From a virus: a DNA stretch of 42,163 nt. Positions 2,436 to 30,883 of this stretch are shown in pieces (position 1 is the stretch's first letter; each line of letters starts with the position of its first letter). The notes under the pieces were generated by a model. It had not been told where the DNA came from. It searched no databases and saw only the letters and a program-made list of their open reading frames with translations. Both the position numbers and the translations under genes were made by a program. The stretch spans positions 1 through 42,163 of the IMG/VR virus record IMGVR_UViG_3300046791_000578, one strand, 5' to 3'.

Positions 2436-3301
2436 CGAGCGGCCTCCTGCCTACCCTCGGCAATGGTGCGCGCGACCAATGCCCAGGCGGGAACATCGGC
2501 CTTCCACGGCTCCCGGGGGTTCTGCTGCTCAGCCCATCGTTGGGCTTCAGGCAGGCAGCCGTAGCAGAGCTTCACCTGATAGCCGTCGTTGCCGATGGCG
2601 GCGGAGGCTCCAGAGCCGCACGCCGCACACGCGGCGAGCTCGAGCACGCGGCCGGTCCCCGCGTCGGGCTTCGGCTGGTGGCGACACGGCTGCCGCTTGC
2701 AGGTGCAGGCCTTTGATTCAGCCCCCCTCGCAGAGGGGGGTAAGGGGGGAGTCGTAGACTCTGCGTCTGCGTCTGTGTCTGGACGCCGGATCTCCGGCGG
2801 AGTTCCGGCGGAGTTCCGGCGGACATCCGGCGGAGTCGTTGTTTTCGGTGGGTTGATGCGCTTCCAGTCCGTCCAAGCCTCTTTGTTCCGCTCGCCCCAC
2901 GCCGGGTCGTAGCGGTTGAGCCCGCGGAAGCGGACGCCTTCGGGGACCGTCTCGACGGTGGGGTAGGCGAGCCCCGCAGCGGCCTCCACGTAGGTGTTCG
3001 GGTCGAGGCCGTAGCCGGCGGCCCGCGCGACCTGGCGCGCCGCGGTGGGGCCCTTCACGACCGCGTTGGCGCTGGGTGGCTGGTGATCGGGGCATCGTGC
3101 GAGGCCCCACTTGATCGCCTCGACCACGCCCCAACCGGCGAGCGCGGTGCGCATCTTGTCGGGACTGGTGCCCCAAGCGGCGCAGATCCGCTGCAGCGCC
3201 GCCTCGAGCTCAGGCTTCAATTCCGGGTAGAGCTTGTCGCCGAGTTCCGGCGCGCTGACCTCGATGACCTCCATTGCGATCTGCTGCCACGGCAGTCTCA
3301 T
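2432..3301 (-). CDS. Hypothetical protein with two cysteine clusters
   Basis: 289 residues from ATG 3301, which overlaps the methyltransferase stop (ATGA); the frame is open further upstream but that part overlaps the methyltransferase. The N-terminal half is helical. A low-complexity linker rich in Pro, Arg, Asp and Thr follows (about 165-205), encoded by 11-bp tandem repeats. The C-terminus has CTCKRQPCRHQ and then C-x2-C ... C-x2-C, resembling zinc binding. The position next to RusA suggests a DNA-metabolism role, but I cannot name the family. Confidence 0.7.
   Translation of the reverse strand: MRLPWQQIAMEVIEVSAPELGDKLYPELKPELEAALQRICAAWGTSPDKMRTALAGWGVVEAIKWGLARCPDHQPPSANAVVKGPTAARQVARAAGYGLDPNTYVEAAAGLAYPTVETVPEGVRFRGLNRYDPAWGERNKEAWTDWKRINPPKTTTPPDVRRNSAGTPPEIRRPDTDADAESTTPPLPPSARGAESKACTCKRQPCRHQPKPDAGTGRVLELAACAACGSGASAAIGNDGYQVKLCYGCLPEAQRWAEQQNPREPWKADVPAWALVARTIAEGRQEAAR
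2790..2833. repeat. Four 11-bp tandem repeats inside a gene
   Basis: Four adjacent 11-bp units with consensus AGTTCCGGCGG at 2790-2800, 2801-2811, 2812-2822 and 2823-2833; the two middle units are identical. They lie within the linker-coding part of the gene at 2432-3301. Because 11 is not a multiple of three, gain or loss of one unit would shift the reading frame ahead of the C-terminal cysteine clusters. Confidence 0.85.
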
Positions 3302-4065
3302 GCGGCACCCCTCCCGGGTGGTTCGTCGTCCAGCTGCAGCGCGGTTTGGCCCTGCTTCCACGAGGCGAGGCTTGAGCCCTGGCATTCCGCGGTCATGCGT
3401 TCGGCCGCGAGGCGCGCCCAGTGGGCGTCAACCTCAACGCCGATGAAACGGCACCGGCGGCGGAGCGCCCCGACCCCAGTCGAAGCCGAACCGCAGAACG
3501 GGTCGAGAATCACACCGCCCGGAATGCACAGCCGGGCGATCTCGGCCATCACCTCAACCGGTTTGCCAGCGATGTGCAGCCGCTCGTCGGCCCGCATCAT
3601 CGCCGTGATCAGACCGGGGAGTACTCCAACCTCTTTGCGCTCCCCAAGTGCTCCGGCGCTGCCCCAGACCACGTATTCGCATTGCGAGCGAGGCCGACCC
3701 ATCTGGGGCCGGGAACCCTCAGTCTTGTCCCACGGCACGATGCCCCGCCACACCCACCCGCCGGCCTGCAGGGCGTCCGTGGTCGATGGGAGCTGCCGCC
3801 AGTCTGTGAAGACTGCCGCCACTGAGCCGGGCTTGGCGATGCGCAGGCACTCGGCCAGCCATAGCGCGCACCAGTACTCGAAGCTGCGCTGGTCTCGGTT
3901 GTCGCCGGCGAAGTCGGGGCGCCGTCCCTCACGCTCGGACTGAACGTATTTCGCGTTCGTGTCAGCCATGCGGTCGCCTCGGAAGGCACCGCCGGACGAG
4001 TAGGGCGGATCGCAGATGATCGCGTCGACCGAGGCCGACGGGAGCGCCCGGAGCACGGCGAGCAT
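3298..4065 (-). CDS. DNA methyltransferase (N4/N6, DPPY ... FCG order)
   Basis: 255 residues from ATG 4065. DPPY (residues 19-22) is the catalytic motif IV and DPFCGSASTG near residue 190 is the SAM-binding motif I. This order (IV before I) is that of beta-class adenine-N6 or cytosine-N4 methyltransferases, which mark phage or host DNA. From the ATG, only 18 residues precede DPPY. The same frame continues upstream with WAVVHGE, which resembles the usual first strand of the fold, then enters an 11-G run. A GTG at 4132 that overlaps the preceding stop would supply the start if the G-run were one base shorter. The present frame may therefore be a truncated or switched-off form. Confidence 0.9.
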   Translation of the reverse strand: MLAVLRALPSASVDAIICDPPYSSGGAFRGDRMADTNAKYVQSEREGRRPDFAGDNRDQRSFEYWCALWLAECLRIAKPGSVAAVFTDWRQLPSTTDALQAGGWVWRGIVPWDKTEGSRPQMGRPRSQCEYVVWGSAGALGERKEVGVLPGLITAMMRADERLHIAGKPVEVMAEIARLCIPGGVILDPFCGSASTGVGALRRRCRFIGVEVDAHWARLAAERMTAECQGSSLASWKQGQTALQLDDEPPGRGAA

Positions 4066-7575: not shown

Positions 7576-7987
7576 TGGCGCCCGCCTTCCGAAGCGCCGC
7601 GACCGTGTCAGCCTTGCAGCGACGACAATGGCGGCACCGATACCCCTCTCCATCGACGAAGTAGTAGGTGTTCGCCGAGGTGAAGGCGTGGCCGCGCTTG
7701 CAGTGGGTCTGTCGCGCTCCTCGTCGACGCGAGTTCTCGCCGTGCGTGACGACCTCCATGTGCTGAGGGTTGACGCACATCGTGATGCAGCACAGGTGAT
7801 CGATCGTCAGCCCGCTGGGGATCGGACCGACGGCGGCCTCGTACGCCATGCGATGGGCGGGCCGGGATCGACGGGCAATGCCGATGACCGGGTAACCGGC
7901 GCCGGTCGCGGCCCCGGTCCAAAGCCAACAGCCGGTGTTCGGCTCAGGCGTCGCCCGAGCCTCGAACTCCTCGATAGCCGGCGTCAC
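7568..7987 (-). CDS. HNH (His-Me finger) endonuclease
   Basis: 139 residues. CWLWTGA near residue 20, then PAHRMAYEAAVGPIPSGL, then IDHLC-x5-CVNPQHME. This is the standard arrangement of free-standing phage HNH nucleases, with the catalytic His in the IDHLC block and a C-terminal Cys-rich tail. Such genes often home into phage genomes. It lies directly downstream of int, overlapping its end by four bases. Confidence 0.85.
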   Translation of the reverse strand: MTPAIEEFEARATPEPNTGCWLWTGAATGAGYPVIGIARRSRPAHRMAYEAAVGPIPSGLTIDHLCCITMCVNPQHMEVVTHGENSRRRGARQTHCKRGHAFTSANTYYFVDGEGYRCRHCRRCKADTVAALRKAGANG

Positions 7988-9513
7988 TGATGGCCCGCCT
8001 CTGCCTGCTCGCGGGCGGCCCGCGCCCGCTCGAAGTCGGCGAGCCGAAGAGGTGTAGTAGATTTACAACACTCGGCAGTCTCTCCACGACCCTCGGTGCC
8101 CGATGCGCTCTCCGAAGTGCCCGATTCGTCATGCGGCGAGAGGCCACTGGGCCTCTTGCGTGCGAGTTCGAATCTCGCCCTGGGCAAATCGTAAATGACG
8201 TCGCTTTCAACGCTTTCCATCGCTGAACCGCCTCCTGTAGGAAGAATTGTAGTAGCCGGGCCCGAAGCCTGGTTCGAACCGGTTCGCGAACCACCCGAAC
8301 CAGCGCCGACAGCCGACGCCAGTGGCAACAGGACCGCAGCGCCGCGCAGCTGGGCCTTGATGCACAGCACCTCCCGGCAGAGCGTCTCCCAGGGGGGCGT
8401 GCTGTACGTGTCCTGCATCTCGCCCTTCGTCGGCCCGTGGCTGACCCAGCGCAGGAAGCCCCCCGCGCCGGAGGCGCGCGCCAGGGTGACGAACGTGCGC
8501 TTCGTATCGTGGAACCGCCGGCGACGCAGGCCCAGCGCTTCGAGGTCCCGCGGGAAGTTGTCGCCGAGGTTGAGATCGGTCACGTAGGTGCCCGCCCGGT
8601 TGGGCACGAGCAGGTCAGTCTCGGTCGGCTGCCGGCCGAACAGCCTCGCCCAGCCGGAGAGCCGCCACTCGCCGAGCAGCGCCGCGGTCAGCGGGTGCAC
8701 GGGCACCGCGCGGGGCAGCTTGTTCTTGGGCGACTTCTCCCGCTTGTTCTTCCGGGTGTAGCTGGCGTGCACGTGCAGCGAACCGAGCGGCAGCCGCGTG
8801 CCGTCATAGGCGCGCCACCGCAGTGCGGCGATTTCACCCTCCCGGCAGCCCCCCAGGAAGGCGATCGCGTAGAACACCCGGCGATCCAGCGGCACCACCG
8901 GGTCCGAGACTAGGCGCTCGAGCTCGGCCAGGCCGAAGACGGCTCCCTCGCGCCAGCTGATGTCCTTGTCGACCGGCTGGGGCCACTCCCCGCGCTCGAG
9001 CTGGCAGGGGCTCTTCGCGATGAGCTCTTCGCGCTCCGCGTCTTTGAAGACGCGGTTCACCAGGCTGTAGATGCTCCGCCGGGTGCGGGGGGCGAGGTGA
9101 TCGGGCTGCTCGTCGGTGCCGATGTTCTTCAGCTCCAGGTGCTCGAGCAGGGCCCTGACGTGCACCAGCCGCACCTCGGCGAGATCCATGTCGCCGAACA
9201 CCAGCCGGCGGCCACCCGCGTCGAGCTCGGCCGGCAGAACGTGGCTCTCGATAGCCCGGGCGTCGAGCTTGGCATTCGTCGCCTTGCCCTTCTTCAGCCG
9301 CTTCTCGTTCCAGCGCCCGGCGAACTCGCGCACGCTGCAGCCCTCCAGGCCGTTCGCCGCCCCGCGCTTCACGCGGTCCTCGATCAGCGCGAGCAGCTCC
9401 TTGGCGAGCAGCTCCTGGCCGACCAGGTAGCCGCTGGACTTGTAGTGCCACTTCCCGTCGGCTCCGAGCCAGCCGACCCACAATTTCTTTCCGCGACGGT
9501 AGACGGTGCCCAT
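7984..9513 (-). CDS. int: Tyrosine recombinase (phage integrase)
   Basis: 509 residues. Catalytic landmarks: Arg I in GGCREGEIAALRW (R224), Lys near 265, the box HDTKRTF (H335), SHG (H359) and nucleophile Tyr370. In relatives the box reads HDTRRTF; here the conserved second Arg position is Lys338, with Arg339 beside it. An N-terminal SAM-like core-binding domain precedes. After Tyr370 comes an unusually long tail of about 130 residues, and the codons for residues 443-451 coincide with a tRNA T-arm/acceptor sequence, the probable attP core. Integration would therefore replace the C-terminal tail. Starts at ATG 9513, overlapping the upstream stop by one base. Confidence 0.92.
   Translation of the reverse strand: MGTVYRRGKKLWVGWLGADGKWHYKSSGYLVGQELLAKELLALIEDRVKRGAANGLEGCSVREFAGRWNEKRLKKGKATNAKLDARAIESHVLPAELDAGGRRLVFGDMDLAEVRLVHVRALLEHLELKNIGTDEQPDHLAPRTRRSIYSLVNRVFKDAEREELIAKSPCQLERGEWPQPVDKDISWREGAVFGLAELERLVSDPVVPLDRRVFYAIAFLGGCREGEIAALRWRAYDGTRLPLGSLHVHASYTRKNKREKSPKNKLPRAVPVHPLTAALLGEWRLSGWARLFGRQPTETDLLVPNRAGTYVTDLNLGDNFPRDLEALGLRRRRFHDTKRTFVTLARASGAGGFLRWVSHGPTKGEMQDTYSTPPWETLCREVLCIKAQLRGAAVLLPLASAVGAGSGGSRTGSNQASGPATTILPTGGGSAMESVESDVIYDLPRARFELARKRPSGLSPHDESGTSESASGTEGRGETAECCKSTTPLRLADFERARAAREQAEAGHQ
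8136..8188 (+). other. attP: Putative attP core: tRNA 3'-end-like sequence inside int
   Basis: On the plus strand, 8162-8178 forms a perfect tRNA T-arm (stem GCGAG/CTCGC, loop TTCGAAT). It is followed by CCTGGGC (8179-8185), as an acceptor 3' strand, and A at 8186. Immediately upstream, 8136-8159 forms a 10-bp stem with a four-base loop. No matching 5' half of a tRNA exists upstream, so this is not a tRNA gene. Tyrosine integrases commonly use tRNA 3' ends as attB, hence the attP call. The exact crossover interval cannot be set from one sequence. Confidence 0.7.
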
Positions 9514-9794
9514 CAGAGACCGTGCCTCCGCTTCATCTCTTCGAAGAAGGCCTTCGCCTCTCGATTGATGCCGTCGAGCACCTGGGTCGCGTGCACCTCA
9601 GGCAGTGAAGAGGCGATGTCGGTGAAGATCTTGAAGCACTCGACGAAGCCCGCATAGAACGCCCGCCGCATGTCTTCACGCTGGCCTTGCGACGCTCCCA
9701 CGGGCAGTACCGCGCCGGCGAAGATCACCCAGAGGTGCGCGATGTTGATGTCCTCCGGCCTCATCACGTCGGTGTATTTGAGCTCGGCGGTCAT
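9513..9794 (-). CDS. Conserved hypothetical phage protein
   Basis: 93 residues, helical, with DMRRAFYAGFVECFKI in the middle. Similar small proteins with an MR-x-AFYAG block are common in phage early regions, but their function is unknown. It lies between the excisionase-like gene and int, with one-base stop/start overlaps (TGATG) on both sides, so the three are co-translated. Confidence 0.7.
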   Translation of the reverse strand: MTAELKYTDVMRPEDINIAHLWVIFAGAVLPVGASQGQREDMRRAFYAGFVECFKIFTDIASSLPEVHATQVLDGINREAKAFFEEMKRRHGL

Positions 9795-10120
9795 CAGCGT
9801 CTTCCTCCCGTTACCGCTGCCAAAATCCGATCAGCTTGCGACGACGGTGACGGCGCCGAGACGGGCCCCGCGCGCCGCGCCAGCAGCGCGCGAACGTCGT
9901 CGAGCCTCACCCGGGCAAGCCTCCCGCGGCCGTACTTGGCGAGCTCGCCGGATGCGATGCGGGCCTTGAGCCAGCTCGGAGAAACCTCGATGTGCCGCCG
10001 CACGTGGGCGACGCTCACCAGGTCCGGCTCAGGCTCTCTGGCGTGCAGCATCTTGGCCTCGGCGAGGGCGTCAGCGACCGCGCGCCGTACGAGGCGGTAG
10101 AGGGCGTCGTCGGTGCTCAT
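9794..10120 (-). CDS. Excisionase-like HTH protein (candidate recombination directionality factor)
   Basis: 108 residues. Residues about 35-85 (SVAHVRRHIEVSPSWLKARI followed by YGRGRLARVRLDDVRALL) have the layout of the MerR/excisionase winged-helix family (HTH_17): helix-turn-helix, wing, final helix. It sits two genes upstream of int in the same operon, a common place for Xis. The excisionase role is inferred from fold and position. Confidence 0.6.
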   Translation of the reverse strand: MSTDDALYRLVRRAVADALAEAKMLHAREPEPDLVSVAHVRRHIEVSPSWLKARIASGELAKYGRGRLARVRLDDVRALLARRAGPVSAPSPSSQADRILAAVTGGRR

Positions 10121-10386
10121 CGCCCGAGAGCCTCTCTGAGCAACAGATGCGCCAAGCGCACGCCGCTCTTTCCGACACCGAGGTCGTAGTCGTCGGTCAC
10201 CAACTCATCGATCGCCTGGAAAGCCCGTTCGACCAGGTCGCGCGACACGCAGGCAACGGCAGCCATCTCCATGCCCGCCATCGCCGCGGCGCGCTCCTCG
10301 AGCAGCGCGAGCACCTGAGCCCGCTGATCGCCGATCCACGGCTCAGCCTCGATGAGCTCGCGGTTGAGTGGGTTCGAGGTACTCAC
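10117..10386 (-). CDS. Hypothetical protein, first gene of the left operon
   Basis: 89 residues, helical, from GTG 10386 with a GGGAG ribosome binding site eight bases upstream. The next gene overlaps by four bases. It is divergent from the lipoprotein gene; the 53-bp gap holds an 11-bp palindrome GCGAGTCTCGC (10417-10427) that could be an operator. No family recognised. Confidence 0.65.
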   Translation of the reverse strand: MSTSNPLNRELIEAEPWIGDQRAQVLALLEERAAAMAGMEMAAVACVSRDLVERAFQAIDELVTDDYDLGVGKSGVRLAHLLLREALGR

Positions 10387-10439
10387 GCGCGAACTCCCGA
10401 AACCCGAGATAGGCTGGCGAGTCTCGCAACGGAGTGGAC

Positions 10440-11297
10440 ATGCTCAGGATCGCGCTTCTCGCGCTCGCACTTTCGAGTTGCTCGCTGATTGGCACCCGAA
10501 GGCCTGACCCCCCGCCCTACGCGGAGCGCCCGACCTGCAACGCCAGCTACGCCCGCCCGGCATGGGATACCGTCTTCGCGGTCGGAGCGGCCGGGCTCGC
10601 GGGCGTCGGGGTTGTCTCGGTCGCGCAGGGGAATGACCCCCAGGCCAATAACCTTGGGCCGGCCGTGGCAAGCATTGTGGTCGGTGGCGCGCTGGCCGCC
10701 CTCTTCACGACCTCGGCGGTGATCGGCTACCCGCGGGTCGCCACCTGCAGCGAAGCGCTGGCGGATTGGCGCGGGCGGCACCCTGAAGAAGAGATCATCC
10801 CGGAGCGGGGACAGCCTGAACATCGGATCGCCAAAGCAGCGCGCGAGATGCTTCCATGCCCCGTCGGAGAACTCGCGGTCGAGAACCTCAGCTTCAGCCG
10901 CAACGATGGCCGGTGTGACCCCTATCGTTGGGCGTCGGTCGAGGTCCGAGGTTGTGGCCTGGCAATCTGGTGCGGTGAGCCCGACGACCGCGTGAAGTGC
11001 GGCGCGACGCCGGATCTCGATCTCGTGATGCGTAGGGTGGCCGCAGAGACGGGCTGCCCGCAGGACAAGATCACTGCACTGGCCCGCGTGGCTGAGGTCC
11101 AGATGGGCCGACGCGGTGCCGACGGTCTCGTGACGCACCGCCTCGATGCCTGCGGACAGGTCTACGCCTGTAGCGTACCGATGACCGTCGGCGACAAGAA
11201 CGACACGCTGTTCCCAGATCTCAGCCCCAGCGCGAACTTCAGCTGTCGCGCGGTGCAGATCGCGGCACCACCGCCGCCGCCACCACCACTTCAGTGA
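10440..11297 (+). CDS. Lipoprotein, probable lysogenic-conversion moron
   Basis: 285 residues from ATG 10440, preceded by GGAG five bases away. Lipobox LSSC with Cys14 predicts signal peptidase II processing and membrane anchoring. A hydrophobic stretch lies at about residues 45-65 and another at 78-95. Two related Cys-paired segments follow: one with LPCPVGEL ... VEVRGCG ... IWC, a second with TGCPQDKI ... DACGQVYAC. This paired-Cys style is familiar from myxobacterial lipoproteins (general impression, not a search). A Pro run closes the protein. It is transcribed alone, against the flanking operon. Superinfection exclusion or surface alteration is a reasonable but unproven role. Confidence 0.8.
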   Translation: MLRIALLALALSSCSLIGTRRPDPPPYAERPTCNASYARPAWDTVFAVGAAGLAGVGVVSVAQGNDPQANNLGPAVASIVVGGALAALFTTSAVIGYPRVATCSEALADWRGRHPEEEIIPERGQPEHRIAKAAREMLPCPVGELAVENLSFSRNDGRCDPYRWASVEVRGCGLAIWCGEPDDRVKCGATPDLDLVMRRVAAETGCPQDKITALARVAEVQMGRRGADGLVTHRLDACGQVYACSVPMTVGDKNDTLFPDLSPSANFSCRAVQIAAPPPPPPPLQ

Positions 11298-11455
11298 CGC
11301 TTCATCGGGCGCGGTGTCATCTCCGGCGGCCTTAGATGGATGCGAGGGGAGACGGGCCGCACTACCCGGCGCTGGTCCCTGTTCGTCGCCTCGATCAGCC
11401 GATCGAGCGAGACCGCCCACTCGACAGAGACCATCACCTTCGCCGTTTTCCCCAC
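11291..11455 (-). CDS. Possible small protein downstream of the leftward promoter
   Basis: 54 residues from GTG 11455, which has GGAG seven bases upstream; in-frame upstream starts would lie before the predicted transcription start. The sequence is basic with a short helical core (MVSVEWAVSLDRLIEATNRD). It ends seven bases inside the convergent lipoprotein gene. The 305-bp stretch 11298-11602 otherwise contains only the operator/promoter at 11505-11534. The coding call is tentative. Confidence 0.4.
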   Translation of the reverse strand: MGKTAKVMVSVEWAVSLDRLIEATNRDQRRVVRPVSPRIHLRPPEMTPRPMKRH

Positions 11456-11504
11456 GCTGCTCTCCCACCAGGAGCCGAGGCGCAAGAACGCGACCCGTGC
11501 TCCC

Positions 11505-11534
11505 GTCATGCACTGAACCAAGGTTCAGTGTCAA
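11505..11534 (-). promoter_or_regulatory. Leftward promoter with operator in its spacer (PL-like)
   Basis: Read on the minus strand: TTGACA (11534-11529), a perfect -35. After an 18-bp spacer comes CATGAC (11510-11505), a 3/6 match to -10. The spacer is filled by the inverted repeat at 11511-11530. A transcript would start near 11498 and run left, antisense to the lipoprotein gene, towards the int operon. The -10 is weak, so the call rests on the -35, the spacing and the shared design with 12018-12046. Confidence 0.5.
11511..11530. promoter_or_regulatory. Operator-like inverted repeat CACTGAACC-AA-GGTTCAGTG
   Basis: Perfect 9-bp arms around a two-base centre. The inner half-site TGAACC/GGTTCA is the same as in the repeat at 12024-12042. 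It occupies the -35/-10 spacer of the leftward promoter, so a bound protein would block transcription. The likely binder is the ribbon-helix-helix-like protein encoded at 11603-11914. Confidence 0.65.
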
Positions 11535-11602
11535 ATCCCGGAACTTCGGTGAAAACGGCGTAAGCCGCATCTCCACTCAACTCCCGCTCAAGAACCGCCC
11601 GA

Positions 11603-11914
11603 TTACTTCTTCTGCCCCGCCTCGCCGCTGGCGACCTTCACGCGCGCCTTGAGCGCACGGATGATCGCGTCGCGGTCCGTCATCTTCTCGGGCTTTGGCC
11701 CGTTTTCCTTCCAGTACTGCTCGACCGCCCACTTCATCAGCTGCTGCGCCAGGTCGTTCTGGGAAAACCGCCCAGTAACCTTCGCCGCGCGGCGGAGCCC
11801 CTTCTCGAACTCGAGGCACTCCGCGATCTCTTTCCAGAGCTCCAAGGTCAGGCGGATAGTCTTGCCGATCCGCGGCTCCTCGTCTCCGAACGAAACAACG
11901 CCATTCCCCATCAT
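11603..11914 (-). CDS. Ribbon-helix-helix-like regulator, candidate phage repressor
   Basis: 103 residues from ATG 11914, chosen because GGGAGG lies just upstream; an ATG at 11974 in the same frame gives a 123-residue alternative. GKTIRLTLELWKEI forms a strand-helix start typical of ribbon-helix-helix proteins. It is followed by GRFSQNDLAQQLMKWAVEQYW as a helix, then a basic Lys/Arg-rich tail. The gene lies between two promoter-like sequences sharing TGAACC inverted repeats and is divergent from the right early operon, the position of a CI-type repressor. The repressor role is inferred from context. Confidence 0.6.
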   Translation of the reverse strand: MMGNGVVSFGDEEPRIGKTIRLTLELWKEIAECLEFEKGLRRAAKVTGRFSQNDLAQQLMKWAVEQYWKENGPKPEKMTDRDAIIRALKARVKVASGEAGQKK

Positions 11915-11981
11915 GAGCCTCCCAGCGTTTGCAACCAGCTGTGTAGCCCAGGACGTGGCGCCGTCGAAACTCATGTCTGGA

Positions 11982-12011
11982 GATGTACCGCACCAATGGT
12001 TGGTTCGTCAA
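11982..12011 (-). promoter_or_regulatory. Possible promoter for the regulator gene
   Basis: On the minus strand TTGACG (12011-12006), an 18-bp spacer, then TACATC (11987-11982), a 3/6 -10 match. An imperfect ACCAA/TTGGT inverted repeat lies in the spacer. It would start transcription near 11975, just upstream of either start of the regulator, and it lies back to back with the rightward promoter. Weak, but well placed. Confidence 0.35.
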
Positions 12012-12017
12012 CTGGTG

Positions 12018-12046
12018 TTGATATGAACCACTAAATGGTTCATTAT
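12018..12046 (+). promoter_or_regulatory. Rightward early promoter with operator in its spacer (PR-like)
   Basis: TTGATA (12018-12023, 5/6 match to -35), exactly 17 bp, then CATTAT (12041-12046, 4/6 match to -10). The spacer begins with TGAACCA and the repeat partner TGGTTCA runs into the -10. Predicted start near 12053, at or just before the ATG at 12056, so the first early message may be leaderless. This is the best promoter match I found in the window. Confidence 0.65.
12024..12042. promoter_or_regulatory. Operator-like inverted repeat TGAACCA-CTAAA-TGGTTCA
   Basis: Seven-base arms with a five-base centre, lying between -35 and -10 of the rightward promoter. It shares the TGAACC half-site with 11511-11530 but with wider spacing. 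Likely bound by the same regulator. Confidence 0.65.
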
Positions 12047-12047
12047 G

Positions 12048-12062
12048 GGTCCATCATGGACC
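12048..12062. promoter_or_regulatory. Palindrome GGTCCAT-C-ATGGACC across the early transcription start
   Basis: Perfect 7-bp arms around one base. It covers the predicted transcription start and the ATG of the first right-operon gene. It could be a second operator or a small hairpin at the extreme 5' end of the message. Confidence 0.5.
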
Positions 12063-12268
12063 AAGGGAAGAGCGACGTTGTCGAGACGATGCGGCAATCA
12101 AAAGATGAGGCCTGGGCCGCATGGTGGGCGCAGGTCAACGGGCCCGCCAAATGCGACGCCAAGGAGACGGAGCGGCTCTGGGAAGCCTACGAGAGAGCGG
12201 CCATCGTCTTCTGTGGAGAGATCGAGGCGCGGGAGCGGCTCGGGGGCTTCGTGCGGGTGACGGCTTGA
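12056..12268 (+). CDS. Small hypothetical protein, first gene of right early operon
   Basis: 70 residues from ATG 12056; an in-frame start at 12035 lies inside the promoter and is rejected. Helical, acidic and tryptophan-rich at the N-terminus (DEAWAAWWAQV). The predicted transcription start is almost at the ATG, suggesting leaderless translation. The stop overlaps the next start (TTGA). The position suggests an early regulator, but no DNA-binding motif is visible. Confidence 0.6.
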   Translation: MDQGKSDVVETMRQSKDEAWAAWWAQVNGPAKCDAKETERLWEAYERAAIVFCGEIEARERLGGFVRVTA

Positions 12269-12516
12269 TCGCCACCTGCCCGAAATGTACGCATCTCTAT
12301 GAAGCCGCCTCCGAGGAACAGGCAAACGATCCGGTGCGGCTCTGCCGCCGCTGCGCCGCGCTCGCCGAACTCCTTGGCGTAGTCGACGAGTTCGTAATGT
12401 GGCGCAGGGCGACCGAGGTGATCGCTGGCTCCGCCGGGGCCGACCGCCTTTCGGCACTGCTCGACAAGCTCATCGAGCGCGCGGACCGCGTCAGCGGCGA
12501 ACTGAGGGCGCCATGA
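12265..12516 (+). CDS. Small zinc-binding protein
   Basis: 83 residues from TTG 12265 (TTGA overlap). An N-terminal CPKC and a CRRC about 25 residues later form a probable four-Cys zinc site, and a helical C-terminus follows. The stop overlaps the next ATG. No named family. Confidence 0.6.
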   Translation: MIATCPKCTHLYEAASEEQANDPVRLCRRCAALAELLGVVDEFVMWRRATEVIAGSAGADRLSALLDKLIERADRVSGELRAP

Positions 12517-12647
12517 TCGCCCCGCGTGTGAAGTACCCCACGGCGCGGGTCGCCCTGGTCGGCTGCGGAGCAAAGAAGGCCCAGCACCGATGCGCAGCCA
12601 GCGACATCGCCTGGCTGAAGAAGCATGCTCGGAGGTCGGCAGCGTGA
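12513..12647 (+). CDS. Very short DUF6884-like fragment (44 aa)
   Basis: 44 residues from ATG 12513 (ATGA overlap). ARVALVGCGAKKA resembles the first strand and loop of DUF6884-type proteins (VALVGCGKAK), which are normally several times longer. It ends in a GTGA overlap with the methyltransferase fusion. Either a reduced stand-alone peptide or the remnant of a larger gene. Confidence 0.5.
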   Translation: MIAPRVKYPTARVALVGCGAKKAQHRCAASDIAWLKKHARRSAA

Positions 12648-13990
12648 AGCCAAACAGCGTTCGCCTGAAGGTTCACCCGGCTGCAGAGCTGTTTCCCATG
12701 ATGACCGACGGCGAGCTCGACGAGCTGGCGGCCGACATCAAGACACATGGACAGTCGCACCCGATCATCGTCACCAGCGGGAACCTGGTGCTCGACGGCC
12801 GCAACCGCCTCGAGGCCTGCCGCCGGGCCGGAGTTGAGCCGGAGGTCCTCATGTGGGACCGCGAAGACGACGGCGTGAGCCCGGCCGAATGGGTGCTCAG
12901 CGAGAACATGCACCGGCGCCACCTCACGCCCGATCAGCGCGCCTCGATTGTGGTGGAGGCGATGGCGCTCGTCGAGGCGGAGCTCGAAACAGCCAAGGCC
13001 GCAGCGAAAGAACGAATGCGAGAGGGCGGCAAGAGGAAGGGTAGCGCCCCGGGCGCTACCCTCAACGTACCGAAAGGAAAGGCCTCAGCGGCTGCGGCGA
13101 AGAAGTACGGAATGGCCACCCGCACCGTCGAGCGCGCAAAGCGGGTGAAGAGCGAGCGGCCGGAACTTTTCGCCCAGGTCCGAGCCGGCGACGTCACGCT
13201 GAAGCAGGCCGAGAAGACGATCGTTCGCGAGCATCAGATCGCGAAGGTGCGCGCCCACGTGCCCCCCGTCGGCGAATTCGGCGTGATCGTGGTCGACCCC
13301 CCATGGTCCTACGAAGACAAGCTCGACGGAAGCGATGCGGTGAGGGGCGCCACGCCCTACCCGACGATGAGCATCGAAGAGATCCGCATGCTCGAGCTGC
13401 CAGTGGCGAAAGACTGCTGCGTCTTTTTGTGGGTGACGAACAGCCACTTGGTCGACCCGATGGCCTACGCCATCGTCGCAAACACCTGGCAGACCCGATA
13501 CGGCCTCGTGCCGAAGCAGATCCGCACCTGGGTGAAGACGCGCATGGGCCTCGGCCGCGGCTGGCGCAACATCACCGAGCACCTGGTGCGCCTCGAGCGA
13601 GGCTCTCCGGTGCTCACCGGCGCGACTCAGACGACGATGCTGGCCGCCTCGCCCGGCGCGCATAGCGAAAAGCCGGCGGAGGCCTACCGCGACATCGAGG
13701 CACTGTGCGCGTCGACTTCGCGGCTGGAAATGTTCGCCCGTGCCGAGCGGGCCGGGTGGGTGACGAACGGCGCCGAGGCCCCGAAGGCGCGGGTTCCTGT
13801 GCGGGCGTCGGCGGTTGAGCCGGGGTTCGAGCTGGTCGACGACGGCACGCTCTGCGGCGTCCGGCCGTCGAAGACCGGCGACGGCTGCATTCACAAGCAG
13901 GGGCACGAAGGCATTCACTCCAATAGGCGCATCACGTGGCGCTCGCCGAAGAAGAAGTTGACGATCGTCGATGTCGAGGACTCGGCATGA
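12644..13990 (+). CDS. ParB-like domain fused to MT-A70 adenine methyltransferase
   Basis: 448 residues from GTG 12644 (GTGA overlap). Residues 1-100 are a ParB/Srx-type domain: HPAAELFPMM, then IVTSGNLVLDGRNRLEACR, then SENMHRRHLTPDQRA. A basic helical linker follows. The MT-A70 domain starts near 210: VIVVDPPWSY (DPPW 218-221), TMSIEEI, FLWVTNSHL, WVKTRMGLGRGWRNITEHL, and a C-terminal HSEKPAEAYRDIE. It should methylate adenine N6 in DNA, with the ParB part probably guiding DNA contact. The last 60 residues add a Cys/His-containing tail. Likely protects phage DNA from host restriction or alters expression early. Confidence 0.88.
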   Translation: MKPNSVRLKVHPAAELFPMMTDGELDELAADIKTHGQSHPIIVTSGNLVLDGRNRLEACRRAGVEPEVLMWDREDDGVSPAEWVLSENMHRRHLTPDQRASIVVEAMALVEAELETAKAAAKERMREGGKRKGSAPGATLNVPKGKASAAAAKKYGMATRTVERAKRVKSERPELFAQVRAGDVTLKQAEKTIVREHQIAKVRAHVPPVGEFGVIVVDPPWSYEDKLDGSDAVRGATPYPTMSIEEIRMLELPVAKDCCVFLWVTNSHLVDPMAYAIVANTWQTRYGLVPKQIRTWVKTRMGLGRGWRNITEHLVRLERGSPVLTGATQTTMLAASPGAHSEKPAEAYRDIEALCASTSRLEMFARAERAGWVTNGAEAPKARVPVRASAVEPGFELVDDGTLCGVRPSKTGDGCIHKQGHEGIHSNRRITWRSPKKKLTIVDVEDSA

Positions 13991-14130
13991 TCGCGCGCCT
14001 ACTGTGCTGGCTCGGCGTGCATGCGCCGCTTCGGGGTGTCGACCCGGCGTGGAGCATCTACTGGTGCTGTACCCGCTGCGGAACGCTCGTGCCTGGCAGG
14101 CTCGGGGTTAAGGGAGGCAAGAGGCGATGA
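13987..14130 (+). CDS. Small zinc-ribbon protein (47 aa)
   Basis: 47 residues from ATG 13987 (ATGA overlap with the methyltransferase stop). IYWCCTRCGTLV gives C-x2-C; an upstream LLCWLGVH may complete a zinc site. The stop overlaps the ATPase start. Kept because both junctions are coupled. Confidence 0.5.
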   Translation: MIARLLCWLGVHAPLRGVDPAWSIYWCCTRCGTLVPGRLGVKGGKRR

Positions 14131-15824
14131 AGGATCTGCGGATCTCGAAAGAGGTGGCGGTGCCGGTCGACGCGGTGACCGAGCGGCTGGCGTTCGTCGG
14201 GCAGAGCGGCTCCGGCAAGACATATGCCGCGATGCGCCTCGCCGAACTCATGCTCGAGGCGGGCGCGCAGATCATCGCGCTCGACCCGATGAGCGTTTGG
14301 TGGGGGCTGCTCAGTGCCGCCGACGGCAAGGCGAGCGGGTTCCCAGTGCACGTCTTCGGCGGCGAGCACGCTCATGTGCCGATCGTCCCCGAGGCCGGCG
14401 CGCTCGTCGCCGACGTCATCGTCTCGAAGGGTATCAGCGCGGTGCTCGACATTGCCGACTTCACGATCAGCGACCAGGTGATGTTCGCCAGCGCCTTCGC
14501 AGAGCGCTTCTACGATCTGCAGCGCAAGGGCAAGACGCCCGTGCACCTGTTCTTCGAGGAGGCCCACAACTTCCTGCCGCAGAACCTGCCCGCGGACGGG
14601 CGCGGTGGCGACCCGCGGCGCAATCCGGCGGTGATGCTGAACCGCATGGAGCGCATCGTTCGGCAGGGGCGCAGCCACGGCATCGGCTGCTCGATGATCA
14701 CCCAGCAGCCCCAAGCGGTGAACAAGAAGGCCCTGAACCAGGCGGGCACCCTCTTCGCGATGCGCACGATGGGTAAGCACGAGCGCAAGGCGATCAGCGA
14801 ATGGATGGCCGACAAGGCCACCGACGCTGAGCAGCTCGATGTCGACGGGCTACTGCCCAAGCTCGCCACCGGGCAGGCGTGGCTTGCGAGCCCCCACCTG
14901 CTCAACGTCTTCCGGCGGGTGCACGTCACGAAGAAGACGACCTTCGACAGTTCGGCCACGCCGAAGTTCGGAGTGAAGCTCGAGGCTCCGAAGGTGCTCG
15001 CCGAGGTCGACGTCGAGGCGTTGCGCGAGGCGATGAAGACCGTGGTGGTCGAGGCGGAGCAGGACGACGCCGGCGCGCTACGGCGGCGCATAGCGCAGCT
15101 CGAGCGGGAACTCGCCGATCGACCGGCACCCGCCCCCGAGAGGGTCATCGTACCGATCATCGGCCCCGATGTGGCGGTGGGGCTCAAGGCGCTCGTCACT
15201 GCGATCGGCGAGCTGTTCCAGAAGTACCCGACCGACGCAGGCAATGCCGCTCCGGCACCGGCGCCCAGGCCACCGCTCGAATGGCCGCATGGCGCGGCGG
15301 TTGTTCTTGCGGCACGCCAGGCCGGCAAGGCGCCCAAGCTCGAGGGCACCGGACTGAAGAAGGGGGCCCGGGAGATGCTGCGCGAACTCGCCGCGCTCCA
15401 CCCGCGCAGCCTTACGCGCCGCCAGCTCGCGACCAGGGTGGTGATGGCCCACGCCGGCGGATCGACCGGCGACTACATCAGCGCGCTCCGTTCGACCGGT
15501 TTCGTCGAGGACGACGAGAACGGCGACCTGCGGGCGACCGCTGAGGGGCTCAAGGCTGCCGGACCGGTTGCCCCGAAGAGCCCGACCGAGATCGTTTCGC
15601 TGTGGAAGAGCCGACCCAACTTCAAGCGCGGGGCGAGGCAGATGCTCGACGCGATCATGTCCGCCTCGAGCCCTCTGTCGCGCGAGCAGCTGGCCGAGGC
15701 CGCCAACATGGAGGCGAGCGGCGGCAGCACCGGCGACTACATCTCGGCGCTGGTCTCCTCCGGGTGCGTCAACAAGAACGGGAAGGGCTACATCGCTGGC
15801 CATGCGCTGTTCCTCCGGCGATGA
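14127..15824 (+). CDS. HerA/FtsK-like ATPase with duplicated C-terminal winged helices
   Basis: 565 residues. Walker A GQSGSGKT (25-32), Walker B HLFFEEAH (about 140-147), and MITQQPQAVNKKAL with an Arg-rich RIVRQGRSHG as sensor region match the HerA/DUF87 branch of P-loop ATPases (DNA translocases and helicases). A coiled-coil-like Ala/Glu linker follows. Two related modules close the protein, at about 410-480 and 500-565. Each has (L/F)K-x-GAR-x-ML, a short HTH and GGSTGDYISAL, which looks like an internal duplication. Probably a DNA translocase acting with the neighbouring methyltransferase or in replication; it is the only helicase candidate in the window. Confidence 0.82.
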   Translation: MKDLRISKEVAVPVDAVTERLAFVGQSGSGKTYAAMRLAELMLEAGAQIIALDPMSVWWGLLSAADGKASGFPVHVFGGEHAHVPIVPEAGALVADVIVSKGISAVLDIADFTISDQVMFASAFAERFYDLQRKGKTPVHLFFEEAHNFLPQNLPADGRGGDPRRNPAVMLNRMERIVRQGRSHGIGCSMITQQPQAVNKKALNQAGTLFAMRTMGKHERKAISEWMADKATDAEQLDVDGLLPKLATGQAWLASPHLLNVFRRVHVTKKTTFDSSATPKFGVKLEAPKVLAEVDVEALREAMKTVVVEAEQDDAGALRRRIAQLERELADRPAPAPERVIVPIIGPDVAVGLKALVTAIGELFQKYPTDAGNAAPAPAPRPPLEWPHGAAVVLAARQAGKAPKLEGTGLKKGAREMLRELAALHPRSLTRRQLATRVVMAHAGGSTGDYISALRSTGFVEDDENGDLRATAEGLKAAGPVAPKSPTEIVSLWKSRPNFKRGARQMLDAIMSASSPLSREQLAEAANMEASGGSTGDYISALVSSGCVNKNGKGYIAGHALFLRR

Positions 15825-16186
15825 GCACCGACCGCCTCGAGTTCCCGCTACTGAACCAGGATGAAGGCACGATCGAACAGATCGCGCAGCGCCTTGCCGC
15901 GCATGCCATTGCCTATGAGGTGAACCGCATCGAGGACGCCGAGCGGGCATCGGGCTGGGAGCTCTTGCAGCGCGACCGTGCCCTCGAAGTCGCCAGCCAG
16001 ATGCGACAGGTCGCCGAGCAGCTCTATTCCGCCGGCTGCCGCGGTTTCGAGGGACGCGTGCAGCACGAGCTCGCGCGCATGCGTGGCTTTCCCTGCGAAC
16101 GCTGCGGCCATCGTCATGAGGGGGTCCGGTTCAGCTATCGGTGCTTTCACTGTATGTGCCACGAGCAACCGAAGGGCCCCCGATGA
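15821..16186 (+). CDS. Hypothetical protein with C-terminal zinc finger
   Basis: 121 residues from ATG 15821 (ATGA overlap). The N-terminal two thirds are helical. The end has CERCGHRHEG and CFHC, a four-Cys zinc site. The stop overlaps the next ATG. No family name. Confidence 0.65.
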   Translation: MSTDRLEFPLLNQDEGTIEQIAQRLAAHAIAYEVNRIEDAERASGWELLQRDRALEVASQMRQVAEQLYSAGCRGFEGRVQHELARMRGFPCERCGHRHEGVRFSYRCFHCMCHEQPKGPR

Positions 16187-16329
16187 TCCCGGCGCATGCC
16201 TCGATGCTGCTCGAGGATCTCGAGCGACTGTTGTGCCGCGAGATCGGGCATGCCGCAGTGCGCGAGGACCGGGGCGCCCCGGTGACCGATTTCTGGCTCT
16301 GCTTGCGATGCCGCAAGTTCTGGCGCTGA
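16183..16329 (+). CDS. Small zinc-ribbon protein (48 aa), last gene of right operon
   Basis: 48 residues from ATG 16183 (ATGA overlap). LLCREIGHAAVR with WLCLRCRKFW gives a C...H...C-x2-C set. The stop TGA abuts the stop of the convergent gene, forming TGATCA (16327-16332) with no spacer, so no terminator fits between the two operons. Confidence 0.55.
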   Translation: MIPAHASMLLEDLERLLCREIGHAAVREDRGAPVTDFWLCLRCRKFWR

Positions 16330-16725
16330 TCAGCGGAACAGGCCCCGAAGCTCCCAGCCGAAATAGACGCCGCCGATCAGCCCGATGGCGAAGAGTGCCC
16401 AGCCGAACACCTGGCTGGCCCCCGACAGCACGGGCGCCGCCGACTCGAGCCCGCGCCGACGGTCGTTGCAGGTCACCAGCAGGCAGGCGAGGCGCGAGGC
16501 TCGTGCGGGGGAGAGCTTCCAGGCGCCCTCAGCGAGCTGCTCGGGTGGCGGGGCGACCGGGCAGCCCGCATAGAGCGGGTCAACCCACCCTGCATCGGAA
16601 AGACCGCCGTCCTGCGCGCGCGCCGGCGCCGAGACGACGAGCGCGAGGACGACGGAGCCGAACGTTCGCCGCGCCCCTAGTATGGAGTGCAGCATCTTCA
16701 CCGGCACGTTCGGTGGCCGGAACAC
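16330..16725 (-). CDS. Exported membrane protein, possible spanin-like lysis protein
   Basis: 131 residues from GTG 16725, which has GGAGG eight bases upstream. Residues about 11-38 look like a signal peptide ending in ARAQ. A short periplasmic-type segment with three Cys follows, and a C-terminal membrane segment (VFGWALFAIGLIGGVYFGW) ends the protein. A signal sequence plus C-terminal anchor is the layout of a unimolecular spanin, but there is no lipobox, so this is only a suggestion. It lies at the end of the lysis block. Confidence 0.6.
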   Translation of the reverse strand: MFRPPNVPVKMLHSILGARRTFGSVVLALVVSAPARAQDGGLSDAGWVDPLYAGCPVAPPPEQLAEGAWKLSPARASRLACLLVTCNDRRRGLESAAPVLSGASQVFGWALFAIGLIGGVYFGWELRGLFR

Positions 16726-16728
16726 CCG

Positions 16729-16971
16729 TCAGTCCTCCGCGGGCGTCAGATCTACGAAGTAAGCCTGCCCGAGCTTGAACTGCTCGTAGGCGGCCGGGTT
16801 GGTGATGGTCATCTGCAGCTGACCGCTCGGGGTCCACTTCGACCACTCGGAGTTCTTGCCGTCGTCGTAGACCGGCTGCAGCGTGACGTTCACCTGCGTG
16901 ACGCCCTCGCCTTTCGACACGCCGGTCAACTCGCTGCGACCCGTGCAACGCATCTTCGCTCTCACTGCCAT
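16729..16971 (-). CDS. Conserved hypothetical phage protein
   Basis: 80 residues. MAVRAKMRCT, VTLQPVYDDGKNSEW, WTPSGQLQMTITNPAAYEQF and AYFVDLTPAED follow a small beta-rich protein found in many siphophages, usually without assigned function. Possibly virion-associated or a small OB-like protein. Full length for the family. Confidence 0.75.
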   Translation of the reverse strand: MAVRAKMRCTGRSELTGVSKGEGVTQVNVTLQPVYDDGKNSEWSKWTPSGQLQMTITNPAAYEQFKLGQAYFVDLTPAED

Positions 16972-17034
16972 GGTGCCGCCTCGTTGGTTGAGGCCCGCTG
17001 AACCGCTCGGCCCTCGTTCACCGCCTGGAATGGC

Positions 17035-30547: not shown

Positions 30548-30883
30548 TCAGCTCCCGGGGTTGAGCTGCAGCACGCGCACGGCGACGCTGGTCACACTCT
30601 CGTAGCTAACGTTGACCTCAGAGCCGTACGTCGCAAGCGGGAACGGGCCGATGGTGGTGGGGTCGGAGTCGGCGACCGCGACCACAAGGTCGGCGACCGC
30701 CTGGCCATCGACCGTTACCGTCGACTCGACGGTAACGTTGATCGGGCCGCCGGAGGTGTTGCTCACCTCGAGGACCTCTTTGCCTGTGTTGGTGAAGCGA
30801 TCTCCGCCTGCCGTCGCGGCCGTCGTGATTTCGCTCGCCGACGTGCCTTCGCGCGAGAAAGATTCTACTTCGAGGAGCGCCAT
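30548..30883 (-). CDS. Tail-region structural protein, paralogue A
   Basis: 111 residues, beta-rich and Thr/Val-rich. FTNTGKEVLEVSNTSGGPINVTV, then TIGPFPLATYGSEV, then VAVRVLQL. It matches the next gene upstream block by block. It sits between tail tube and chaperone genes, suggesting a tail or virion surface component; the function is not known. Confidence 0.65.
   Translation of the reverse strand: MALLEVESFSREGTSASEITTAATAGGDRFTNTGKEVLEVSNTSGGPINVTVESTVTVDGQAVADLVVAVADSDPTTIGPFPLATYGSEVNVSYESVTSVAVRVLQLNPGS

Follow-up and report, generated by a model that had tools for sequence, protein, structure and literature searches.

The region at positions 11505-12062 of the IMG/VR virus record IMGVR_UViG_3300046791_000578 is probably a lambda-like, autoregulated immunity region, in which the candidate repressor is an orphan protein. 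Its layout is best read as that of an ordinary phage switch and not as a categorically new one. This reading is based on a pair of palindromes unique in the record, each located beside a near-unique -35 box, and a third site with an identical spacer; on the integrase and excisionase-like genes nearby, together with the lack of an HTH_3 gene and of any better repressor candidate; and on the same architecture found at the loci L300, L309, L325, L329 and L288 of other phages.

The window analysed here is the entire record (42,163 bases; 67% GC). It encodes a terminase, a portal protein and a long leftward structural block; an integrase (phrog_1 match, 1e-26) and an excisionase-like HTH_17 protein, the genes of which lie 1.5-4 kb from the candidate repressor region; and a RusA-like resolvase, along with HNH and methyltransferase genes. 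A short rightward block encodes a ParB-like/MT-A70 protein and a HerA-like ATPase. Judged by this gene content, the window is a temperate tailed phage. In cellular genomes, the terminase relatives detected come from many phyla and do not exceed 48% identity, and thus point to no particular host. HTH_3 (PF01381) had no match across the entire record up to E=10, with 14 of 14 control genomes positive, and no match came from the Rfam and tRNA scans.

Two genes flanking the region are of separate interest. Between the integrase operon and the candidate repressor gene, in the orientation opposite to that of the operon, a rightward gene (10434-11297, +) encodes a protein of 287 aa that has a lipoprotein-like signal (LALSSC) and a proline-rich end and resembles the products of lysogenic-conversion or exclusion genes. 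On the other side, the product of 12590-13990 (+) consists of a ParB-like N-terminal part (phrog_4715, 5e-16) fused to an MT-A70-type methyltransferase, and the HerA-like ATPase gene comes next. Two perfect palindromes with 12-bp arms are the longest in the window: one is located within this MT-A70 gene (13038-13062, AGGGTAGCGCCC-C-GGGCGCTACCCT), the other within a gene of the structural block (30713-30737, CGTTACCGTCGA-C-TCGACGGTAACG).

The pattern TGAACC-N(2-7)-GGTTCA occurs twice in the 42-kb record, at 11514-11527 (the core of site 1, TGAACCAAGGTTCA) and at 12024-12042 (TGAACCA-CTAAA-TGGTTCA, the inner 19 bp of site 2), with 0.01 matches expected from shuffled sequences. A mismatch-tolerant search identified site 3, which has the same spacer of 5 as site 2 and lies 35 bp to the left of it; matches of this type have a shuffle mean of 0.62 per record, which amounts to about 0.003 expected in the surrounding 200 bp. 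Site 3 is upstream of the leftward gene, in the position expected of an autoregulatory site. The features of the region are listed in the table.

Table. Features of the candidate immunity region, in window coordinates
Feature	Position	Strand	Description
Site 1 (left palindrome)	11511-11530		CACTGAACC-AA-GGTTCAGTG; perfect, 20 bp, 9-bp arms
Leftward -35-like TTGACA	11529-11534	-	Exact; abuts site 1; one of two TTGACA in the record
Candidate repressor gene	11603-11911	-	Orphan 102-aa protein; P0001 minus its first 21 residues
Site 3	11989-12007		CGCACCA-ATGGT-TGGTTCG; 3 mismatches; upstream of the candidate repressor gene
Leftward -35-like TTGACG	12006-12011	-	Overlaps site 3; best -10 TACATC, N18, 3/6
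Rightward promoter	12018-12046	+	TTGATA-N17-CATTAT
Site 2 (right palindrome)	12023-12043		ATGAACCA-CTAAA-TGGTTCAT; 21 bp, 8-bp arms; fills the -35/-10 spacer
Extra short palindrome	12048-12062		GGTCCAT-C-ATGGACC; spans the start codon of the first rightward gene
First rightward gene	12056-12268	+	70 aa; no family match

Among 400 simulated second-order Markov sequences, none contained a pair of long palindromes that both adjoined TTGA[CT]A, whereas two palindromes sharing a 6-mer (arms of at least 8, at most 1 kb apart) occurred in 43 and are thus not rare alone. It is the association with -35 boxes, more than the common half-site, that argues for the palindromes being functional. The initial annotation had taken sites 1 and 2 for the same operator with differing half-site spacing (2 versus 7 bases); this difference argues against the same use by a rigid dimer. 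Site 1 has 7 bp between its heptad centres, compared to 12 bp in sites 2 and 3, and the half-site spacings of sites 1 and 2 differ by half a helical turn, so that one rigid dimer should not read site 1 and sites 2 and 3 alike. Because of this difference, and because site 1 contains the sole GAAC-N4-GTTC of the window, sites 1 and 2 may be read by different proteins. The exact 20-bp palindrome of site 1 was not found elsewhere in the viral contigs. An intrinsic terminator at site 1 was considered and ruled out, there being no T-run.

The rightward promoter was annotated initially as TTGATA-N17-CATTAT with TGAACCA-CTAAA-TGGTTCA in its spacer, and this is what the record contains (12024-12042 within 12018-12046). 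It is the sole promoter-like match in positions 9000-17000, where 0.6 would be expected by chance, and is located in an AT-rich dip (48-49% GC compared to 67%). Counting both strands of the whole record, there are two copies of TTGACA and a single TTGATA. The first rightward gene has its start codon about 10 bases beyond the -10 CATTAT, so it is possibly leaderless. On the left, where a promoter with an operator in its spacer had been proposed as well, the exact TTGACA abutting the palindrome is present but has no good -10 (the best, CATGAC at N18, matches 3 of 6 positions). The leftward ORF downstream (11291-11521) shows codon usage no better than non-coding sequence, and the next leftward genes, the excisionase and integrase operon, start 1.1 kb on, beyond the opposite-facing lipoprotein gene. 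The lack of a good -10 does not exclude a leftward promoter, given that the -10s at the comparable operators of the GC-rich prophages L300 and L309 are weak too (3/6 and 2/6, respectively). The TTGACG overlapping site 3 is a weak candidate promoter for the repressor gene.

The candidate repressor gene was originally delimited as P0001, of which residues 22-123 have favoured codon usage (0.40 per codon) and residues 1-21 do not (-0.02). Since, in addition, GGGAGG precedes the ATG at 11911, the protein probably has 102 aa and starts there. No significant match to P0001 was found in Pfam, NCBIfam, PADLOC, PHROGs or PDB, and no HTH match, C1/Cro-type domains included. Relatives were likewise missing from the collections of viral contigs, genome contigs, phages and plasmids, and from 75 whole genomes or records with related terminases or similar sites; the lone weak match, in G003, covers 46 residues (E=0.004) inside a 603-aa frame. 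No better repressor candidate emerged among the window proteins scanned. It is the position of the gene that suggests DNA binding by its product.

To compare the layout with those of other phages, IMG/VR was scanned for TTGAYA-N0,1-TGAACC-N2..7-GGTTCA, which matched 45 stretches, the majority inside coding sequence, with L307 and L326 assigned to neither class. Four are plainly regulatory (L300, L309, L325 and L329), each located between divergent regulator genes, and in three of these (L300, L309, L329) further near-copies of the operator occur 14-80 bp away. The leftward proteins contain a C1/Cro-type HTH in L300, L309 and L325, and belong to an HTH DNA-binding/repressor family (phrog_16278) in L329. 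In all four, TTGACA abuts TGAACC-N6-GGTTCA, compared to N7, counted alike, at site 2 of the window. A scan of viral contigs for TGAACCA-N5-TGGTTCA matched 119 stretches, most of them attributable to chance within AT-rich coding sequence; among them, L288 contains a divergent HTH gene pair and an operator with exactly this pattern, as at site 2, and identical arms (ATGAACCA-N5-TGGTTCAT). Like the window, these five loci have operators between divergent genes, often clustered, whereas their repressors are recognisable (HTH or repressor-family) and that of the window is an orphan. The window layout is thus a common phage switch layout, the recognisable repressors of which are HTH proteins. The divergent HTH genes of the prophages L300, L309, L288 and L329 enclose 2-4 related operators at intervals of some tens of bases, which makes these loci readily usable for studying operator-repressor covariation.

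No close relatives of the phage were identified through the MT-A70, HerA-like and integrase proteins. A close one by terminase (L003/L085, 84%) is represented by a contig that ends at the equivalent of window position 22.8 kb, and the region is absent from this contig; the searches yielded no relative of the region. In another related phage (L088, from G004), near-identical 26-bp perfect palindromes are present at 7681-7706 and 15548-15573 (TAGAGACGTTGCA and TGCAACGTCTCTA, differing by one base per arm), and three palindromes of the CCCCTGGG type occur elsewhere in the contig.

The sites, the -35 boxes, the right promoter, the gene and the gene order are directly seen in the record. From these, we infer a circuit in which the leftward gene would encode the DNA-binding repressor of a temperate tailed phage. 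Bound to the 19-bp operator of site 2, inside the rightward promoter, the repressor would block RNA polymerase and keep the rightward operon silent (proteins of 70 aa and 83 aa, the ParB/MT-A70 methyltransferase and the HerA-like ATPase); bound also to the weaker site 3, over the putative promoter of its own gene, it would control its own level. Site 1, over the leftward -35, could act in the same circuit as a further point of control, facing the int/xis side on the left; its reader would be the repressor itself or another protein, such as host LexA.

The likeness to lambda OL/PL-cI-OR/PR proposed in the initial annotation holds in the operator order, with a leftward repressor-type gene between the left and right operators; in the operator within the -35/-10 spacer of the right promoter; in an additional site covering the putative promoter of that gene; and in the nearby integrase and excisionase. 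On the left it is partial, a palindrome and a -35 being present without a good -10, which leaves that promoter incomplete. Unlike lambda, the window has unequal half-site spacing, and neither a CI/HTH protein nor a recognisable cro was found in it. Counting against the immunity reading are the candidate protein, which has no detectable relative or fold, the leftward promoter, which lacks a -10 or a clear gene, and the deviating half-site spacing of site 1.

The gene between the operators had been described as encoding a ribbon-helix-helix (RHH)-like protein, and the locus as a new type of immunity switch. In the strongest form of this proposal, an RHH protein would be the master immunity repressor acting on both operators, its dimers binding TGAACCA heptads 7 or 12 bp apart. 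More broadly, the product might represent a new family of small master repressors, RHH-like with a lengthened first helix or of an undescribed fold, reading heptads at two spacings and doing the job of CI without an HTH. We consider each of these versions unlikely, if conceivable. The short half-sites bound by RHH dimers, such as Omega, can be arranged in various ways, and the TGAACCA heptad itself is partly symmetric (TG...CA). A strand and two successive helices can be traced by eye in P0001 (KTIRLTLELWKEI...RFSQNDLAQQLMKWAVEQYW), with about 9 extra residues. Against this, no RHH profile in Pfam, NCBIfam or PHROGs matched P0001 (weak PHROGs matches all had E>=0.12), and deletion of the apparent 9-residue insertion from the sequence still produced no RHH match. 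Nor did RHH_1 (PF01402) match anything in the record at E values up to 10, with all 14 control genomes positive. The single-sequence AlphaFold models of P0001 are of low confidence (pLDDT 55 and 65), all helix without a strand, and Foldseek with these models found no PDB match. Furthermore, HTH proteins serve the phages with the same layout. The initial annotation had suggested searching for the operator pattern beside RHH genes; at all four regulatory IMG/VR loci with a -35, the leftward proteins were instead HTH or repressor-family proteins. In L325, an HTH_3 repressor gene (3121-3360, -) and the divergent rightward gene in the cro position (3420-3887, +), encoding an Arc-like RHH protein (phrog_3431, 1.8e-11), flank the TTGACA-TGAACC-N6-GGTTCA operator. 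L325 appears to be a better-supported case of an RHH protein in a switch than the window, and P0001 has no similarity to its Arc-like protein. The RHH identity of the 11603-11911 product is a guess that the searches did not support, and so is the novelty of the switch: RHH repressors of phage immunity are already known, namely, Mnt and Arc of P22 (PMC10516654), so that another would be no new principle. P22 Mnt/Arc and SPbeta YosL are small DNA-binding immunity regulators that would resemble P0001 only if the RHH reading is right, and neither sequence nor fold links them to it.

Other alternatives concern the protein that reads the sites. A serious rival, although rather improbable in our assessment, involves two regulators: host LexA would bind site 1 as an SOS box at the leftward promoter, and the phage protein would bind only sites 2 and 3. 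Under this version, damage to the DNA would switch on leftward transcription, as at the LexA-controlled promoters of other temperate phages. The GAAC-N4-GTTC of site 1 (11515-11526), which abuts the TTGACA that lacks a good -10, corresponds to the core of the Gram-positive Cheo/LexA box (PMC2248561), which is given as CGAAC-N4-GTTCG in the paper on phage GIL01 (PMC4551915). Read leftward, site 1 agrees at 14 of 17 positions, by our count, with the Myxococcus box CTRHAMRYBYGTTCAGS (PMC9705874). The involvement of LexA would also account for the half-turn difference in spacing between site 1 and the other two sites, which have equal spacers. GIL01 and the window share GAAC-N4-GTTC at a phage promoter, only a putative one at site 1, but the window has a single box, a single occurrence in a record of this size is about what chance would give, and no SOS gene is evident downstream. 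The two-regulator version is ranked below a single circuit because the TGAACC common to sites 1 and 2 would then be a coincidence. Slightly less probable is that site 1 is non-regulatory, either a chance palindrome or an RNA hairpin downstream of the small gene, so that only sites 2 and 3 matter. The frequency of nearby palindrome pairs sharing a 6-mer in the simulations (43 of 400), the missing -10, the weak downstream ORF and the stable hairpin predicted by folding are compatible with this explanation; the TTGACA that adjoins site 1, however, has only one other copy in 42 kb, and the hairpin has no Rfam match. Finally, it is very unlikely that a different phage protein, such as the ParB-like/MT-A70 product or an unseen regulator, binds the palindromes and that the small gene is unrelated. 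Some ParB-type proteins are promoter repressors, and the 12590-13990 product has a ParB-like region, but the sites lie in promoter spacers flanking the small gene and not at the methyltransferase gene, and their unequal spacing is awkward for ParB-type dimers too. Because the immunity reading leaves the reader of site 1 open, its likelihood overlaps with those of the LexA, RHH and chance versions, each of which refines it as much as it competes with it.

In many environmental temperate phages, no repressor can be recognised. Genes that are pointed out by their own operators offer a practical route to new repressor families from DNA alone, and the window locus is a clean test case for such operator-guided repressor finding. 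The unique GAAC-N4-GTTC at the left site also poses a simple testable question, namely, whether the region is governed by one repressor, or by a repressor and host LexA.
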